From Spirochaetae bacterium HGW-Spirochaetae-5 (lineage in GTDB: Bacteria > Spirochaetota > UBA4802 > UBA5550), in the NCBI GenBank assembly GCA_002839285.1, contig PGXT01000019.1, positions 1 to 60,634 of the forward strand: 60,634 bases of DNA. The letters are read 5' to 3'. The position numbers were made by a program, and so were the translations under genes. A model generated the notes under the pieces. It was not told where the DNA came from and did not search any database. It was given only the letters and a program-made list of their open reading frames with translations. Below, in pieces: positions 39,844 to 47,154 of the stretch. Within the stretch, counting starts at the first letter, position 1. Every line of letters starts with the position of its first letter.

Positions 39844-40863
39844 TCAGTCTTTATTATATTTGTTAATCAATTCTTTTTTACCTGCTTCCATATCAAGCCT
39901 TCTACGGAATGAATCTGCTTCTTCTCCGAAAGTGTTATTCTGAAGTTTAAATATCATATCCTGTTTTTCTTTATCACTTAATTCACTATTATTTTCAATA
40001 TCACTATAAGCAGACATATATGACAGCTCTTTCTGCTTTTCAGCATCCATCAGGTTGTCCACTTCTTCAAGTCTTTGTACAATTTCGGGAGAAAAAACTT
40101 CTTCACGAAATTCTTTTATTCTCGATGCTTTATCATTCTCACTCATTTCACTCAAATCTTTTGAATAGGCCTCAATCTTTTCAGTATATCGGGTATAGGG
40201 CTTTCTATTATTTTCTATATCATCAGCATCTTTTCCCCACATCTCAGCATTAAGCTTCCTTATTTTTTCCTCTTTTTCTTTTCCATAAAGAGCCGGATCA
40301 TTGATTATCCCTGCCCGTCTGATAGGATACTCCTGAGATTTCAGAGAAGCCCCGAAAATAATATCGGCATTTTTTTCTCCAAACATTTCAACCTGCATTT
40401 TTCTCATCTTTAAAAGAATTCCAAGAAAATCTTCGGTAGTATTTAAATCTTTCATATTGTTAAGCTCGGAAGCAAGTCTGTTTTCATATTCAAGAAATAC
40501 TTTGTATATTTCTAACAATTTATCAGCTCTCTCACTATCCATCGAGTCATAAAGATATTTCCGTACCGCTTCCAGATGCTGATCATAATTCATCTCTTTG
40601 AAAGTTTCCTGAAGAAATTTGAAAAATTTAAGTGTATATTTATTTACCAGATTATCTTTGAAATATTCCCGGTTTTTCGTATCATTAAAATCAACTTTTT
40701 TTAAATAATCACGAACATCAGAATAACTCAGTTCCTCAGAACCTCCGGAAATATAATCCGTATCATCCGATGAAAAAATATTAGTAACCACATTAATTAC
40801 TATAACAACCATAAGTATAATCACAGTAAAAGTTAACAAATTTTTCTTAGACAGCTTAAACAT
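39844..40863 (-). CDS. Lipase-specific foldase (steric chaperone, LifO/LipB-like)
   Basis: 339 residues: one N-terminal membrane helix (about 10-30), a variable linker, then a long highly charged helical region like the lipase chaperones that wrap around their lipase in the periplasm. The conserved foldase signature near 60-80 is recognisable but diverged (KNREYFKDNLVNKYTLKFF in place of the RxxFDYFLSAxGE form). Repeated RKLNAEMWG and RRAGIIND-type stretches match the helical mini-domains. Position right behind a lipase gene is the strongest evidence. A GTG at 40872 is possible; I chose ATG 40863. Confidence 0.8.
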   Translation of the reverse strand: MFKLSKKNLLTFTVIILMVVIVINVVTNIFSSDDTDYISGGSEELSYSDVRDYLKKVDFNDTKNREYFKDNLVNKYTLKFFKFLQETFKEMNYDQHLEAVRKYLYDSMDSERADKLLEIYKVFLEYENRLASELNNMKDLNTTEDFLGILLKMRKMQVEMFGEKNADIIFGASLKSQEYPIRRAGIINDPALYGKEKEEKIRKLNAEMWGKDADDIENNRKPYTRYTEKIEAYSKDLSEMSENDKASRIKEFREEVFSPEIVQRLEEVDNLMDAEKQKELSYMSAYSDIENNSELSDKEKQDMIFKLQNNTFGEEADSFRRRLDMEAGKKELINKYNKD

Positions 40864-40885
40864 ATACCCCACTCCCGTAAATAAA

Positions 40886-40918
40886 ATCAGGCTGCATAAT
40901 TGCAGCCTGATATTTTTT
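40886..40918 (-). terminator. Hairpin between lipase and foldase genes
   Basis: ATCAGGCTGCA (40886-40896), TAAT loop, TGCAGCCTGAT (40901-40911): a perfect 11-bp stem. T-rich sequence flanks both sides, so it could act in either direction. On the minus strand it lies after the lipase stop and ahead of the foldase start, where partial termination would make lipase mRNA exceed foldase mRNA. Confidence 0.75.
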
Positions 40919-40940
40919 AAATAATTATGTGTACGATGTA

Positions 40941-41828
40941 TTAAAAACCTTTATTCTTCAAATCACTTACCATGTCAATATAAAACTGTGGTGCATCAAA
41001 ACCAGGAGTTATTCCAAAAAACTGATTAACTATATTCAAATGGTCTACTCCACCTGCCCACCATGCTCCTTCAATAACTCCTCTAAATGTACCCCATTTC
41101 GCAGAATTAACAGATACTAAACCATCATTATCACCTTCATAATAAAGAGCTATTAACCAGGGAATTTCAAGAATAAGACTATTTGAAACATACTTAATTT
41201 TCGAAGTATAGCTCTGATAGTATAATCCTGCAATATTCGGACAATTTTTATTAAAAGTATTCTGCATGTACGGTCTTGTCATCTCAAGACCATTATCAAG
41301 TGAATTCGGGTTTTTATCACCGAATATAAATGTATAAACTACATCCATTGTAGCTCCGACAAGGGCCCAACCCTGGCTAGGTACAATTTTAAAGACCATA
41401 TCAGCAACTGAACTTCCTCTATGAGGACCGGAAAGACCTGTATATGAAGCGACTTTCCCTGATAATCCAAGATTTGTAATGGCATATCTTGTATAAATAG
41501 TACCATGAGAATGGCCAATTATATTAGCTTTAGCTTTACCTGAAATCGCCAGAATATCTAAAAATTGACGTTTGAATGATGCAGCTTTATTAGCTGTACT
41601 ATCCATTCCGTTAACTGACGTTATATATACATCCGCTCCCTCATCTTCAAGAGCATCTTCTATTCCCCACCAATAATCTACAATATTTACTATTTTAGCC
41701 TGTGCACCCATTCCATGGGCAAGGACAACCGGAAACTTTGTATCACATTTAGGAGTGCTGCCCGAAGCAAACACCAGGGACGGGATTAATAATATAGAAA
41801 AGATAACCGCATAAATTTTAAAATTCAT
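40941..41828 (-). CDS. Secreted triacylglycerol lipase, foldase-dependent type (family I)
   Basis: 295 residues with a Sec signal peptide (MNFKIYAVIFSILLIPSLVFASG). Alpha/beta hydrolase motifs: FPVVLAHGMGAQ (oxyanion region) near 33, the nucleophile in IGHSHGTIYTRYA near 106, TGLSGPHRGSSVAD, and the catalytic histidine in GVDHLNIVNQFFG near 275, a stretch shared with Pseudomonas and Burkholderia lipases. Those lipases need a dedicated membrane foldase, which is the next gene. GGAGG precedes the ATG. Confidence 0.9.
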   Translation of the reverse strand: MNFKIYAVIFSILLIPSLVFASGSTPKCDTKFPVVLAHGMGAQAKIVNIVDYWWGIEDALEDEGADVYITSVNGMDSTANKAASFKRQFLDILAISGKAKANIIGHSHGTIYTRYAITNLGLSGKVASYTGLSGPHRGSSVADMVFKIVPSQGWALVGATMDVVYTFIFGDKNPNSLDNGLEMTRPYMQNTFNKNCPNIAGLYYQSYTSKIKYVSNSLILEIPWLIALYYEGDNDGLVSVNSAKWGTFRGVIEGAWWAGGVDHLNIVNQFFGITPGFDAPQFYIDMVSDLKNKGF

Positions 41829-42046: not shown

Positions 42047-42850
42047 TCACTGCATAGTTTTATCAATAACAACTCTAAAACCATAATAGGGACTTCGAGC
42101 AGTAGGACATCTCCTGAATCTGAATTCTCTGGATTTCTGAATATTTTCACTTAAAAGCGATCCGCCTCGAAGAGTTTTATAAATATTCCCGAAATCTCGA
42201 TTAGACACACTAGCATCATACCCATCATACCAATCCATAGTCCATTCCCAGAGTAGGCCCAATTGATATTCTGAATTTTCAATATTAAATTTTAGGGCTT
42301 CAATAAAATCAATATCTGATTTTACTTTAGAATTGGTATCCAAATACAAATTTTTCATAGATGGAAGACCTGCAAAATTTCCTAATATTTCCCACTCATA
42401 CTCATGCGGCAACCTTACTTCCTCACCGGTTTCAAAACTTAACCATCTGGTATATTCAAACGCATCGTTCCAGGTCACCTGCATAACTGGAAAGTTTTCA
42501 TCATAAAAACCAGAGGAAAGAGTATTCTCAATAATAAAAGGTGTTTTCCATGAAACATTTTTCTCTTTCTGCCATTTAGTATTCCAGACCCAACCCCACC
42601 CTTCCTTTTCAGATTCAGTAACGTAAGATGTGGCCCTGATGAATTTTTCAAATTCGGCAGCAGTTATTAGCTTTTTTTTAATACAAAATTGGTTATACTG
42701 AATTTTCTTAAGAGGGGATGATGCAGCTATAAACTCCTTTTTTATCTTACGGCCATCAATCATTGAAACTATACTATCTACCGAGGCCGGATCAATGCCT
42801 AAATCAAAATATCCACCGGGAAAGGAGATGTAATCATCCAACTCAAACAT
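42047..42850 (-). CDS. Formylglycine-generating-enzyme-fold (SUMF1/DUF323) protein, third gene of operon
   Basis: 267 residues, no signal peptide. FGE-sulfatase fold: FCIKKKLITAAEFEKF near 55-70, FPVMQVTWNDAFEYTRWLSFETGEEVRLPHEYEWEILGN near 120-158, LWEWTMDWYDGY near 200, and TLRGGSLLSENIQ with YYGFRVVID at the end. In true FGEs two cysteines near the RGGS motif bind copper and the substrate; here only one (FRRCPTARS) is evident. With no sulfatase nearby, a binding or regulatory role is more likely than sulfatase maturation. Four bases after the GAF protein gene. Confidence 0.8.
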   Translation of the reverse strand: MFELDDYISFPGGYFDLGIDPASVDSIVSMIDGRKIKKEFIAASSPLKKIQYNQFCIKKKLITAAEFEKFIRATSYVTESEKEGWGWVWNTKWQKEKNVSWKTPFIIENTLSSGFYDENFPVMQVTWNDAFEYTRWLSFETGEEVRLPHEYEWEILGNFAGLPSMKNLYLDTNSKVKSDIDFIEALKFNIENSEYQLGLLWEWTMDWYDGYDASVSNRDFGNIYKTLRGGSLLSENIQKSREFRFRRCPTARSPYYGFRVVIDKTMQ

Positions 42851-42853
42851 GTA

Positions 42854-44797
42854 CTATTCTAATACTTCCAATATCGTGAACAGATCTTTCCCATCTTCAG
42901 GAAAAACAGAATTCAAAGATGTGATAAGAAGTTTAAAATCGCTGCTGCTGTATTTTTCGATGACTTCATTTTTTACAGTATTAGCAAGCATCATTGAATA
43001 TTTCTTTTCTTTTCCAGGCAGAACAACTAGAAACTTGCTTCTATCAATCCTTGCTGAAAAATCGCCATGGCTTAATCTAGACTTTATAATTTCAGCAATC
43101 TGCATGTAAAGTTTTTCAAGTTCAATACGTCCGAATCGTTCATAAAATCGTTTATAATTCTTAACGCTAAACATCACAAGACTCATGGGAATATTTAAAT
43201 CTCTTGCATGCTGCATTTCATTTTCAATTTTTTCATAAAACATCGAGATTAAATCACTCGATCTATTCAATTCCGGATCAATTTCGTACATCCGATGAAG
43301 ATACGGGAACAAAAATCTATTTATTTTCTGAATACGTATATCTATATCAACTATATCTACTGCAGGATTTATTTTAAATATTGTTATAAATCCTGAAAGC
43401 TGTCCTGAAATAATAAATGGATAGGCGATAAATAATTCCATTTTTACAATTCTATTTCTTCCAAAAGTATCGATTATAACATTCGATTCATTAAAATTCT
43501 CAAGTATAATTGAAGACTTTTTATTTATAAGAAATGAAACCAGACGATTATCTTTTTTAATTTTAAAGCCGGAATCTGAAAAACCGAGAATATTGTCAGG
43601 TTCATTATACGCTGGATAATAATCTCCATCAACCTGATTCCTGACAAATAGAGTATAGCATTCAAGACCAAGAGAATAAAAATTTTTCTGTATAACCTCT
43701 TCCAGATCACCCAAAGATGTAACATTCAGAATAGAATCCTGAAAAAATTCCACATCAGATAAGATTTCTTTTTCAATTCTTAAGGCGTAAAGTTCTGTGC
43801 TGGTTTTCTCATATTTAAATAATGATTCAAGAATGGATGAACTGATATCAGAAAGAGCCTGCAGAAATTCAATTTCCATATCAGTAAAATCTTCAGAATT
43901 TATTTTTTCACCTACCAGAATGACACCCGCAAGTTTATCATTCTTTATAAGCGGTGTTAAAATCCGTGCATCTACAGATGTAAACTTATAATAGTCATCT
44001 CTCAAATTGTTATCATTTTTGATATCTTCAATATCAAGCACACCTTTATATGTACTTAAAATTTCAAGAATTCCTTCACTAATAACCCAATGTATATCAC
44101 TGTCTGAAATTTTAATACCATGAGTGTCTGTAATAACCCATTTTACCTCATCATCTACAGAAGGAGCAACAATAGAAACGGAGGACACACCCAGCTGACC
44201 CATAATAGAAAACAAAATAGTTGAATATACATCTTCTACAGTATCTGCTTTTATAAACTCTTTCTGAATTTCAAAGAGAGTGCCATAATCGTTAAATTCA
44301 GGAATCTCAAAATTATTAACCTCCTGAGTTACAGTATTCTCAACAATTTCAGTTTCAGGAGCATCACTGTTTTTAACATATTTTATATCCGATTTTTCAA
44401 TATCAATAACATCTTCTACATAATTTTTTACCGGTTCAATTTCATATTCTGAAAACTCAGTTACAGGTGGAATAACAGATTTACGTGTTTTAAAATCATC
44501 ATGTTTCGAGTCATCTGAATAATAAGAACTTTCATCAAATAGAAGAATTTCTTCTTCCTCCTGATGAATTTCATGAACAGCTATATCTCTTTCTTCTGTG
44601 GCGTTTATTTCTTCAAGCAGATCAGCATTTAAATGCAGTAAAGGCTCTTCGGTATGATCAAGTTCTATAATATCGACTTTTTCCACATTAAGAGATTTTT
44701 CGGTTTCAGCAGGACCCTTTATCCGATCGATTAATGTAGTTTTCCCGGTATCATTTATCTTCTGTTTATATTGTAACGCACGTTCAAGTAGACCCAT
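42854..44797 (-). CDS. GAF-domain protein with a degenerate C-terminal GGDEF-like domain, second gene of operon
   Basis: 647 residues, apparently soluble. Residues 1-180 are acidic low-complexity sequence. A GAF domain follows (about 185-325: FIKADTVEDVYSTILFSIMGQLGVSSVSIV, DARILTPLIKNDKLAGVILVGEK), then a second GAF-like region (340-500), and last a domain with the diguanylate cyclase framework (515-645: MSLVMFSVKNYKRFYERFG, DFSARIDRSKFLVVLPG). The GGDEF signature is replaced by IDRSKF, so it should not make c-di-GMP. Likely a sensor or scaffold. Starts two bases after the acidic protein's stop. Confidence 0.78.
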   Translation of the reverse strand: MGLLERALQYKQKINDTGKTTLIDRIKGPAETEKSLNVEKVDIIELDHTEEPLLHLNADLLEEINATEERDIAVHEIHQEEEEILLFDESSYYSDDSKHDDFKTRKSVIPPVTEFSEYEIEPVKNYVEDVIDIEKSDIKYVKNSDAPETEIVENTVTQEVNNFEIPEFNDYGTLFEIQKEFIKADTVEDVYSTILFSIMGQLGVSSVSIVAPSVDDEVKWVITDTHGIKISDSDIHWVISEGILEILSTYKGVLDIEDIKNDNNLRDDYYKFTSVDARILTPLIKNDKLAGVILVGEKINSEDFTDMEIEFLQALSDISSSILESLFKYEKTSTELYALRIEKEILSDVEFFQDSILNVTSLGDLEEVIQKNFYSLGLECYTLFVRNQVDGDYYPAYNEPDNILGFSDSGFKIKKDNRLVSFLINKKSSIILENFNESNVIIDTFGRNRIVKMELFIAYPFIISGQLSGFITIFKINPAVDIVDIDIRIQKINRFLFPYLHRMYEIDPELNRSSDLISMFYEKIENEMQHARDLNIPMSLVMFSVKNYKRFYERFGRIELEKLYMQIAEIIKSRLSHGDFSARIDRSKFLVVLPGKEKKYSMMLANTVKNEVIEKYSSSDFKLLITSLNSVFPEDGKDLFTILEVLE

Positions 44798-44799
44798 TT

Positions 44800-46590
44800 C
44801 TAAACACCAATCTCTTTTAGTACTTTTGAATAAAGATCAAAATATTCAGATTCAGCAAATTTGCGGATTACTTCTTCAGGTAATTTCTCAAACAAACCAT
44901 CAAGATAGGACAGCAATTTTATAAGATTTTCATGTTTATCAGGGAATTCAGAAACAAGTTCAAATAATTTCTCTTTATCTTCTAAAATTATAATTTTATC
45001 GGTTATATCAGGTAATTCATCAACGGATGGCGTTACATCTTTAGTCAAAACTTTTTCAATTGCATCTTCGGGTTTATAATTGAAATCTCTAAATAGAATC
45101 TCCTCTATTTCAGCAATATCCTCTTCGAACACTATTGCATTAGCTGAGGAGATATCCTCTTCAATAGATTTTTTCTCATCTTCAGAAATACTATTTTCAC
45201 TTTTAGTAAAATAGTTCAGATTCTTTGTCCCGGAGTAATTGCTTCTAAAAAAATCAATTTCCGGCTTAATAAAATCAATTTCATTATCCAGATCAAATTT
45301 TTTGTAGTAATCACCGAAAAGCTTATCTTCTATATATTCTTTCTCGTCAGGTATAAGACCCAATATTTCAGAAATTTCACTCTGAATCAATGAATCTTCA
45401 GACTCAAAATAATCATCTATTTCATGAATATATTTTGTAAAATCATCACGAATTATTGCATTCTCTATAAACTCAAAATCAGAATCGTTATAAAAAACTT
45501 CTTCTTTGAAAACAGTATCAAATTTTTCAGAACTGTATAAAGTATAATCTTCGAGAATATAACTGGAATACTCCCCCTCTTTTGCAGTAATTTCAAGAAG
45601 TTCCATTTTGCCGTCTGCAACTTCAATCATTTTAACAAGACGCTCAGTTAAAAGATCTTCATTATACGAAACAGTATCTTCCTGTATTTTTTTATTCAAA
45701 AACTGATCATCTGCGAATCTGCATTTTGAGTCTGCATCTGTTTCACTATATTTTTCTAAAGCTTTCTCATCAATTTTTGCAAAAGCCGCATCATTTAATA
45801 TTGAAAACAGCTGAGCATCCAGTGTCTCTTCATTAATTTTTATACTGAATAGTTTTTTCGCATCCGGAATAGCATCATTAGATTCGGGAATAAACTCAAT
45901 TGTATCTAAACGAATGATTTCATCAATTCCTGCAGAACTGTCTGTGAAAAGAGTATCCTCATCAGTTAACTTATCATCCAATGAAACATCATTCTTTTGA
46001 CTCTGAATAGCAAATTCCTTATTGCCGGATTTAGAAAAAGTTTTATCTATTGCTAAATCTTCAACTTCTGAATCTTCAACTTCTGAATCTTCAATTGATG
46101 AATCCTCAGTTATCGATTTTTCAATTAATAAATCTTCACTACCGGAATTTTTATTTGAAAGATCAGTATTTACAATAAAATCATTTAATTGTTCTTTTTT
46201 ATCAGAATGAGTTTCAGTTACTGAGGAATAATCATTTTCAATTGAAATTTCGGATAAAATTAACGGTTCTGATTCGACATTGGAAGCTTTGGTCTCAATA
46301 AAAACGTCATTTAAAACTATATTTTTAGAAGTGACTGGCGATTCCGTTTCCTGTCTGTAATTTTTAACTGGAACCAGTTCGAAATCCTCTAAACCATCGA
46401 TAAGATCTGCTTCACTTAAGAATAATACCTCTTCACTGGCTATCTTCTCTGCTTCAATCAGATCAATTTTACCGAGAATTGACATATCAAATTTAGCAGA
46501 AGCATCCGGTTTTCTTGAATCAACAGCTTCGCCGCTCGTCATAATTGAAGACGATTTGTTGTTTATAATTTTTTTATCAGCAGAATCCAT
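44800..46590 (-). CDS. Large acidic repetitive protein, first gene of operon
   Basis: 596 residues with no signal peptide or membrane helix. Aspartate, glutamate, serine and isoleucine dominate; lysines are fewer. Short acidic repeats occur (SEVEDSEVED at about 162-171, encoded by 15-bp tandem units). Only the first 30 and last 60 residues look ordered (LFELVSEFPDKHENLIKLLSYLDGLFEKL). The composition of the next protein's N-terminus is similar, so the two may share an origin or interact. No family recognised. First in a three-gene operon with two-base and three-base spacings. Confidence 0.7.
   Translation of the reverse strand: MDSADKKIINNKSSSIMTSGEAVDSRKPDASAKFDMSILGKIDLIEAEKIASEEVLFLSEADLIDGLEDFELVPVKNYRQETESPVTSKNIVLNDVFIETKASNVESEPLILSEISIENDYSSVTETHSDKKEQLNDFIVNTDLSNKNSGSEDLLIEKSITEDSSIEDSEVEDSEVEDLAIDKTFSKSGNKEFAIQSQKNDVSLDDKLTDEDTLFTDSSAGIDEIIRLDTIEFIPESNDAIPDAKKLFSIKINEETLDAQLFSILNDAAFAKIDEKALEKYSETDADSKCRFADDQFLNKKIQEDTVSYNEDLLTERLVKMIEVADGKMELLEITAKEGEYSSYILEDYTLYSSEKFDTVFKEEVFYNDSDFEFIENAIIRDDFTKYIHEIDDYFESEDSLIQSEISEILGLIPDEKEYIEDKLFGDYYKKFDLDNEIDFIKPEIDFFRSNYSGTKNLNYFTKSENSISEDEKKSIEEDISSANAIVFEEDIAEIEEILFRDFNYKPEDAIEKVLTKDVTPSVDELPDITDKIIILEDKEKLFELVSEFPDKHENLIKLLSYLDGLFEKLPEEVIRKFAESEYFDLYSKVLKEIGV
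46056..46115 (-). repeat. Four tandem 15-bp units inside the acidic-protein gene
   Basis: Units start at 46056, 46071, 46086 and 46101. The first two are identical (AATCTTCAACTTCTG on the plus strand), the third and fourth diverge. Each encodes five residues of the SEVED/SSIED type on the minus strand. The length keeps the frame, so copy-number change would vary the protein without disrupting it. Confidence 0.8.
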
Positions 46591-46692
46591 AATTATTCAT
46601 CACTTTGTATTTTTAGCTCTATTACTGTCTTAATAAAAGAATTAATAAGAAATGCAATTATTTAATTATCGGCATATTAAGCAATTATAAAT

Positions 46693-46726
46693 AAAAAAAG
46701 GAATGCCGTAAAGCATTCCTTTTTTT
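46693..46726 (-). terminator. Rho-independent terminator of the ATP synthase operon
   Basis: AAAAAAAGGAATGC, six-base loop, GCATTCCTTTTTTT, 24 bases beyond the atpC stop. The A- and T-tracts on both sides would make it work in both directions, but the genes ending here are on the minus strand. Confidence 0.85.
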
Positions 46727-46749
46727 ATTTAATAAATATATTCTAACTA

Positions 46750-47154
46750 CTATCTTCTAGCAACTTTGAGTCTGACCTTTAATCTGTCCTTTTCAAGTTT
46801 CAGAATAAACTTATCCTCTGAATACTGAGGCATTTCATTCATCTGATTATCCAGATCTTTCATCTTCAAATCGAGTTCTGAAGCGCTAAGGTCACTTTTC
46901 TTAAAAGCTTTTTCTGCAAGTATAATGAGTTTATTATTCTTAATCTCTACAACACCACCTTCAACAACAAGGTAATCGACACTTTTGGGATTATTAAGTC
47001 TAATCTCTCCGATACCAAGTCTTGAAATAAGAGGTGAATGCCCATAAAGAAAACCCATCTCTCCGTCATGCGCCTGAACAACAGCAAATCCTACTTCGCC
47101 TTCATAAATAAGTCTTTCCGGAGTTAATATGCTGCAATTTATTACACGTTCCAT
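46750..47154 (-). CDS. atpC: F1 ATP synthase epsilon subunit
   Basis: Central-stalk subunit and intrinsic inhibitor. 134 residues: an N-terminal beta-sandwich (CSILTPERLIYEGEV, GEMGFLYGHSPLISRLGIG, VEGGVVEIKNNKLIILAEKA) and a C-terminal helical hairpin (LDLKMKDLDNQMN, RLKVRLKVA). Last gene of the operon, two bases after atpD. Confidence 0.95.
   Translation of the reverse strand: MERVINCSILTPERLIYEGEVGFAVVQAHDGEMGFLYGHSPLISRLGIGEIRLNNPKSVDYLVVEGGVVEIKNNKLIILAEKAFKKSDLSASELDLKMKDLDNQMNEMPQYSEDKFILKLEKDRLKVRLKVARR

Follow-up and report, generated by a model that had tools for sequence, protein, structure and literature searches.

Three closely spaced genes on one strand of a spirochaete contig raise the question of whether they form a single system and, if they do, what that system is for. 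A sequence-only reading of the window (the whole 60,634-nucleotide stretch of DNA that was analysed) had proposed a joint, undescribed system made of an acidic protein, a GAF/degenerate-GGDEF protein and an FGE-fold protein. The three open reading frames and their spacings were found exactly as that reading gave them, with 2 bases between the acidic and GAF genes and 3 bases between the GAF and FGE genes. The locus is laid out as follows:

46750 to 47154, minus strand: atpC (ATP synthase epsilon), context outside the module, assigned by synteny; the upstream neighbour in loci of the window's order and of the Leptospirales
46690 to 46729, minus strand: terminator-like hairpin with a T-run between atpC and gene 1 (-20.4 kcal/mol, z -6.6 by direct folding)
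44800 to 46590, minus strand: gene 1, open reading frame for an acidic, mostly disordered protein of 596 aa, core of the module; in the neighbourhoods examined, its orthologue immediately precedes the GAF gene
44803 to 45027, minus strand: C-terminal helical module of the acidic protein, its last 75 residues, used as the family marker (alignment, 61% mean column identity)
42854 to 44797, minus strand: gene 2, soluble GAF-GAF-degenerate GGDEF protein of 647 aa, core of the module (Pfam GAF and GGDEF; AlphaFold mean pLDDT 76; orthologues throughout the order)
42047 to 42850, minus strand: FGE-like single-domain protein of 267 aa, a family-specific passenger outside the core pair (PF03781, 2.3e-29)

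The start of gene 1 lies about 160 bases from atpC, and because the strong terminator-like hairpin parts the trio from that gene, the three genes are probably carried on a transcript of their own. A promoter and terminator scan of the locus returned promoter-like sites at chance level and missed this hairpin, which was seen by direct folding. Elsewhere in the window, at 39844-41828 on the minus strand, a lipase-like alpha/beta hydrolase gene lies beside a gene for a lipase chaperone (PF03280, 'Proteobacterial lipase chaperone', 3e-26), here in a spirochaete, and these two genes are kept together in the closest relatives (L022, L023, L202).

Gene order in other spirochaetes had been set beforehand as the comparison on which the proposal of a joint system would stand or fall. 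The first two genes came through it, since across the phylum they stand in the same order. Within the window's order the GAF protein was found in the relatives searched (two fragmented genomes gave weak matches alone, probably to paralogues), and in the neighbourhoods from this order (L021-L055) the acidic gene is directly upstream of the GAF gene, mostly within 5 bases. The C-terminal module of the acidic protein was detected in 288 of 393 Spirochaetota genomes and in 146 of 168 genera, almost always as a single copy per genome, and when a large named genome collection was scanned with it the records returned were those of Spirochaetota together with a few MAGs titled only 'bacterium'. The partner is directly downstream of the acidic gene in 31 of 37 assessable families, usually 0-20 bases away (f1-f8, f11, f13-f16, f20, f22, f24, f25, f27, f29, f30, f32, f34-f36, f38, f41, f46, f55-f57 and f59), as tallied by hand from one locus per family plus named loci, with f10 and f28 outside the 37. 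No adjacent partner was seen in the neighbourhoods of six families (f9, f18, f37, f43, f50, f58); the f55 partner appears to be split into two open reading frames, and no partner was seen in other members of f14, f15 and f30. The pair is inherited side by side across the phylum, and the system is one of two genes, acidic and GAF, and not of three.

The product of gene 1 is acidic and largely disordered, as had been supposed, with a net charge of -88, 25.5% Asp+Glu and an AlphaFold mean pLDDT of 52 (327 of 596 residues below 50), and it also contains conserved modules. Pfam and NCBIfam searches gave no family match, comparison with PDB sequences gave no match below 0.35, and Foldseek, queried with this low-confidence model, returned nothing significant (best E 0.54). 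Within the window's order an N-terminal stretch is kept (IGxIDLxEAExIAxEDILxLxExDLIExLE), and the C-terminal module ends in LLKYLDGLFEKLPExxIxKFAxSEYFDLYxKVLNELG; in the window's genome the module had a single significant match. The idea that the only role of this module is to bind the N-terminal peptide of the partner is not supported, since in a treponeme-type group the module is kept with no partner beside it. Short forms of the acidic protein (about 200-270 aa) without an adjacent partner occur in L119, L121, L127-L129, L134, L137-L139 and L159, and in L138, from the treponeme-type group, the short form is encoded near a PBP1A gene.

The product of gene 2 is modelled as a helix (residues 3-16), a disordered stretch (26-168) and three folded domains, and the following parts were delimited:

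44696 to 44797, minus strand: N-terminal peptide MGLLERALQYKQKINDTGKTTLIDRIKGPAETE, residues 1-34 (75% mean column identity, 22 orthologues)
43883 to 44290, minus strand: GAF domain 1, residues 170-305 (Pfam GAF 8.5e-5 at 188-317, AlphaFold model, Foldseek matches to tandem-GAF proteins and a phytochrome cyclase)
43358 to 43714, minus strand: second GAF-like domain, residues 362-480, with no Pfam match in the window protein (secondary structure and confidence of the AlphaFold model, tandem-GAF matches in Foldseek)
42857 to 43243, minus strand: degenerate GGDEF domain, residues 519-647, with DRSKF at 585-589 replacing GGDEF (Pfam GGDEF 1.4e-10; residue table of 31 orthologues)

The overall fold is like that of phytochrome-type GAF-GGDEF cyclases and tandem-GAF proteins (Foldseek, PDB 5llw E 5.6e-17 and 1mc0 E 2.4e-12), but identity to these is only 11-12%, there is no catalytic site, and gene 2 adds a disordered acidic N-terminal part and the conserved N-terminal peptide. 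Between families, whole gene 2 proteins share only about 30-35% identity, compared with 75% for their first 34 residues. The peptide had no other strong match in 20 genomes, which argues against a general targeting tag, and its helix is not supported as a membrane-targeting amphipathic helix, its hydrophobic moment being not above that of shuffles (p 0.10-0.73). Partners across the phylum start with MGLLxKA, mostly as MG(L/F/M)xxKA, and the GLLxKA-type motif was counted 79 times in 75 partner proteins against 0.6 expected from shuffles, some proteins having 2-6 copies. Two to six such motifs stand in tandem in the N-terminal part of the partners in L144, L146, L150, L153, L154 and L178.

The genes that follow the pair vary by lineage and are often of a motility type. 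In its proposal of a joint system the sequence-only reading had included neither these flagellar contexts nor the C-terminal module, the MGLLxKA N-terminus and the second GAF-like domain. In four families (f22, f38, f41, f46) the pair is followed by an uncharacterised gene of about 340 aa and then by fliM, which was assigned by a FliM match of 1.6e-83 in L149 and by near-identical N-termini in the others. FapA follows the pair in f14 and f20 (Pfam) and in f29 and f36 (by sequence start), and MptE/Maf-like genes follow it in f24 and f27 (Pfam), with an HSxYDP-type signature of such genes, a sequence signature only, in f9, f43, f55, f56 and f57; neither FapA nor MptE-like domains are confined to motility. 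In f15, Brachyspira-like to judge by its gene content, a FliL-FliM-FliY cluster is preceded by a very large acidic open reading frame with a weak match to the module (2e-5).

Several of these neighbours have features of their own. The gene of about 340 aa between the partner and fliM (L149:2748-3812, L156:1230-2282, L157:1377-2420, L161:1163-2176, L168:1678-2682) has a shared ending, W.(I/V)(T/S)G.....L, and its L149 copy has no Pfam match. At L166:5093-8142 and L155:64-3172 the pair is directly followed by two MptE/Maf-like genes in a row (PF01973; in L155 the second was assigned from its signature only), which suggests a connection with the glycosylation of a protein of the flagellum or the cell surface. 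The acidic open reading frame upstream of FliL-FliM-FliY in L203 (Brachyspira-like, G139) has about 3,025 codons.

Presence of the module was then compared with presence of FliM. The marker occurs in 272 of 297 FliM-bearing genomes and in 16 of 60 without FliM, f39 excluded (odds ratio 30), in a table compiled by hand whose statistics ignore relatedness and in which the losses amount to few independent events. All 36 sampled genomes of the aflagellate family f49, presumably non-helical Sphaerochaetaceae from their gene content, and three genomes of f45 have neither the marker nor FliM, and an rpoB control was found in 43 of the 44 genomes lacking both. A real counter-example is f39, presumably Borreliaceae on the same kind of evidence, where FliM is present and the marker absent in 36 of 36 sampled genomes.

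A further possible connection to the flagellar motor comes from the acidic protein. The N-terminal peptide of FliM (LSQxEIDxLL) binds CheY-P. Outside the window's order the acidic protein contains repeats, PIALSDDELDNIL, that resemble this peptide and match its pattern (ALSKDELDNILS vs ILSQDEIDQLLT), and an LSxDELDNIL motif is found in many other lineages; in the four families described above, fliM lies in the same gene cluster as the pair. Unlike FliM/FliN, the acidic protein carries up to 12 copies of the FliM-like repeat in one disordered protein and has no switch-protein domains. The repeat pattern, written after the repeats had been seen, was found at 143 places in 89 acidic proteins, compared with 2.2 in shuffles. 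A profile built independently from six FliM/FliY N-termini (threshold 24) gave 169 matches per 100,000 residues in acidic proteins against 3.3 in other proteins (about 50-fold), and 76 matches against 1.3 in composition-preserving shuffles, counts that include many copies from one lineage or one protein that are not independent. A profile trained on the repeats ranked FliM N-termini within the top few per cent of proteins, but their scores did not exceed the maximum reached by shuffles; the scan with the FliM/FliY profile gives the clearer result. LSxxEL is a common helix-capping pattern, so convergence is possible.

The sequence likeness is weak or lost in the window's order. Only 7 of 31 proteins there exceeded the 95th percentile of shuffles, compared with 39 of 57 elsewhere, and the best FliM-like segment of the window protein (SLIQSEISEILG, from residue 400) scored just below that percentile. 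The window's copy has largely lost the repeats.

Because the pair is conserved, often lies beside flagellar genes and is missing in lineages without flagella, a spirochaete-specific and probably motility-related control module is indicated. Our preferred reading, to which we give a probability of roughly 45%, is that the two genes encode an undescribed, phylum-specific scaffold-sensor pair that would serve the control of periplasmic flagella, with the repeats capturing a response regulator. Gene 1 would supply a multivalent docking scaffold in the cytoplasm, with gene 2 as its sensor or adaptor; a small ligand would be bound by the GAF domains, and the dead GGDEF fold, whose basic surface is conserved, would be a binding part and not an enzyme. 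The assignment to periplasmic flagella is suggested by the gene context, the phylogenetic profile and the resemblance between the motifs. The acidic repeats may capture a regulator such as CheY-P in the manner of the FliM N-terminal peptide, the GAF partner tuning the capture. Against a role in motility stand the f39 counter-example, the weak FliM-like motif in the window's order and the ATP synthase neighbour there. A fully specified version, in which a FliM-N-like array of up to 12 peptides gated by the GAF/dead-GGDEF partner would capture CheY-P or another regulator and so shape the switch signal to motors at both cell ends, is distinctly unlikely as it stands.

Other explanations fit parts of the same evidence. 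The pair could be a general organiser of the cell envelope, pole or cytoskeleton in long helical cells, an acidic hub with an adaptor whose link to flagella would be indirect. The partnerless short acidic protein beside the PBP1A gene in the treponeme-type group, the FapA-type beta-solenoid neighbours and the absence from f49, if its identity is as presumed from gene content, are consistent with such a role, whereas a more specific link to the motor or switch is suggested by fliM and FliL-FliM-FliY lying beside the pair in separate families and by the FliM-like repeats; we regard an organiser as possible, although on the unlikely side.

In most of the window's order and in the Leptospirales (f11, f34) the pair comes directly after atpC, a position that suggests instead a sensor of energy or cell state tied to the F-type ATP synthase: its GAF domains would detect a nucleotide or metabolite, and its acidic protein would dock at or regulate the ATPase. 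GAF folds often bind cyclic nucleotides, as is generally known of the family. However, the hairpin separates the window's pair from atpC, many families have no ATP synthase gene beside the pair (including f14, f20, f22, f24, f36 and f41) and the marker tracks FliM, which makes a role at the ATP synthase quite unlikely.

The residues of the GGDEF domain bear on a third explanation. Its degeneracy, described before from the IDRSKF site, is borne out by the loss of catalytic residues in all 31 aligned orthologues. At the positions of the GG(D/E)EF signature these proteins mostly have DR(N/H/S)K, the metal-binding D-x-D positions (the D-x-D-x-F-K segment) read S-I-K-N-x-K, and at the I-site RxxD, five residues before the signature, Asp579 is kept and the Arg position is Ser in 25 of 31. 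With the signature, the metal-binding Asp and the I-site Arg missing, an active diguanylate cyclase or I-site receptor is rejected on the residues. It is still conceivable, but very improbable, that the protein remains a receptor for c-di-GMP or GTP and the pair a conventional c-di-GMP effector: the GGDEF fold is kept and a positively charged DR(N/S)K...LPGK(D/E)KK surface is common to most of the 31 orthologues, but the A-site is lost, the I-site arginine is not at the expected alignment position, and in several families the partners, which carry GAF and GGDEF domains where Pfam detects them, have no Pfam-detectable GGDEF domain.

The third gene of the trio has a separate history. Most of its open reading frame is covered by an FGE-type domain, as in FGE/EgtB/SUMF-like proteins. 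As had been noticed from the window alone, only one of the two copper-site cysteines of FGE is present (C248, invariant in 15 orthologues, with no second conserved Cys). Unlike EgtB, the protein has no additional N-terminal iron-binding domain, and the curated EgtB equivalog scored 67 bits against a cut-off of 360, matching over the C-terminal part of the model only. The accompanying remark that there is no sulfatase is true near the locus and not genome-wide, three sulfatase-family open reading frames being present. Orthologues were found in 28 of 39 relatives, but linkage to the pair was seen in 15 loci, all in the window's family (f1). In 12 genomes from other families of the order the orthologues (E below 1e-85) lie away from the pair among other neighbours, G013 of the window's own family has the pair and no FGE match, and elsewhere in the phylum no FGE match was found beside the pair in the neighbourhoods examined. 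The FGE gene is a local passenger of one family, not part of the core. A three-protein complex with the FGE-like protein as an essential binding part, for which the 3-base gap, the linkage within one family and the spread of orthologues among relatives could be cited, is accordingly rejected as a three-gene system because those orthologues are unlinked outside the window's family, and we consider it scarcely credible; to this extent the earlier proposal of a joint system did not hold, while for the acidic and GAF genes it did.

A very probable counterpart of the pair can be named in Leptospira. In L. interrogans, atpA is LIC_11241 and atpD is LIC_11243 (PMC5553009). LIC_11246 is annotated as a 'conserved hypothetical protein' (PMC2387172), and PMC12943098 describes LIC_11247, which 99% of isolates carry, as a GGDEF protein that lacks catalytic residues and lists it as a candidate c-di-GMP-related protein. 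The Leptospiraceae loci have the order atpC, an open reading frame of about 100 aa, the acidic protein, the GAF/GGDEF protein and MBOAT. LIC_11247 is four loci after atpD, as gene 2 is in the Leptospiraceae loci examined here, and shares a GGDEF domain without catalytic residues; by gene position it is very probably the orthologue of gene 2. Because order and content fit the f11 loci, LIC_11246/LIC_11247 are very probably the pair. For LIC_11247, the passages of PMC12943098 that were consulted mention no pairing with the acidic protein and no MGLLxKA peptide. Our literature search found no paper on the pair. To our knowledge it matches no described system. What appears to be new is the acidic family and the pair as a system; the general kind of its GAF/dead-GGDEF half is already known.

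Spirochaetes swim with internal flagella, and the motors at both ends need coordination over a long cell. A review (PMC7225975) argues that diffusion of CheY-P looks too slow for this, and lists the signalling between motors at two distant cell ends as unsolved. The FliM-like repeats on a spirochaete-specific pair give the question of motor coordination specific genes, very probably including LIC_11246/LIC_11247. The Borreliaceae seem to be without the pair, and therefore it cannot be a universal answer to that question. A gene pair conserved side by side in most of a phylum makes a strong candidate for biology that defines a lineage, and should the reading as a motility module fail, its two genes would still have clear priority among those of unknown function.
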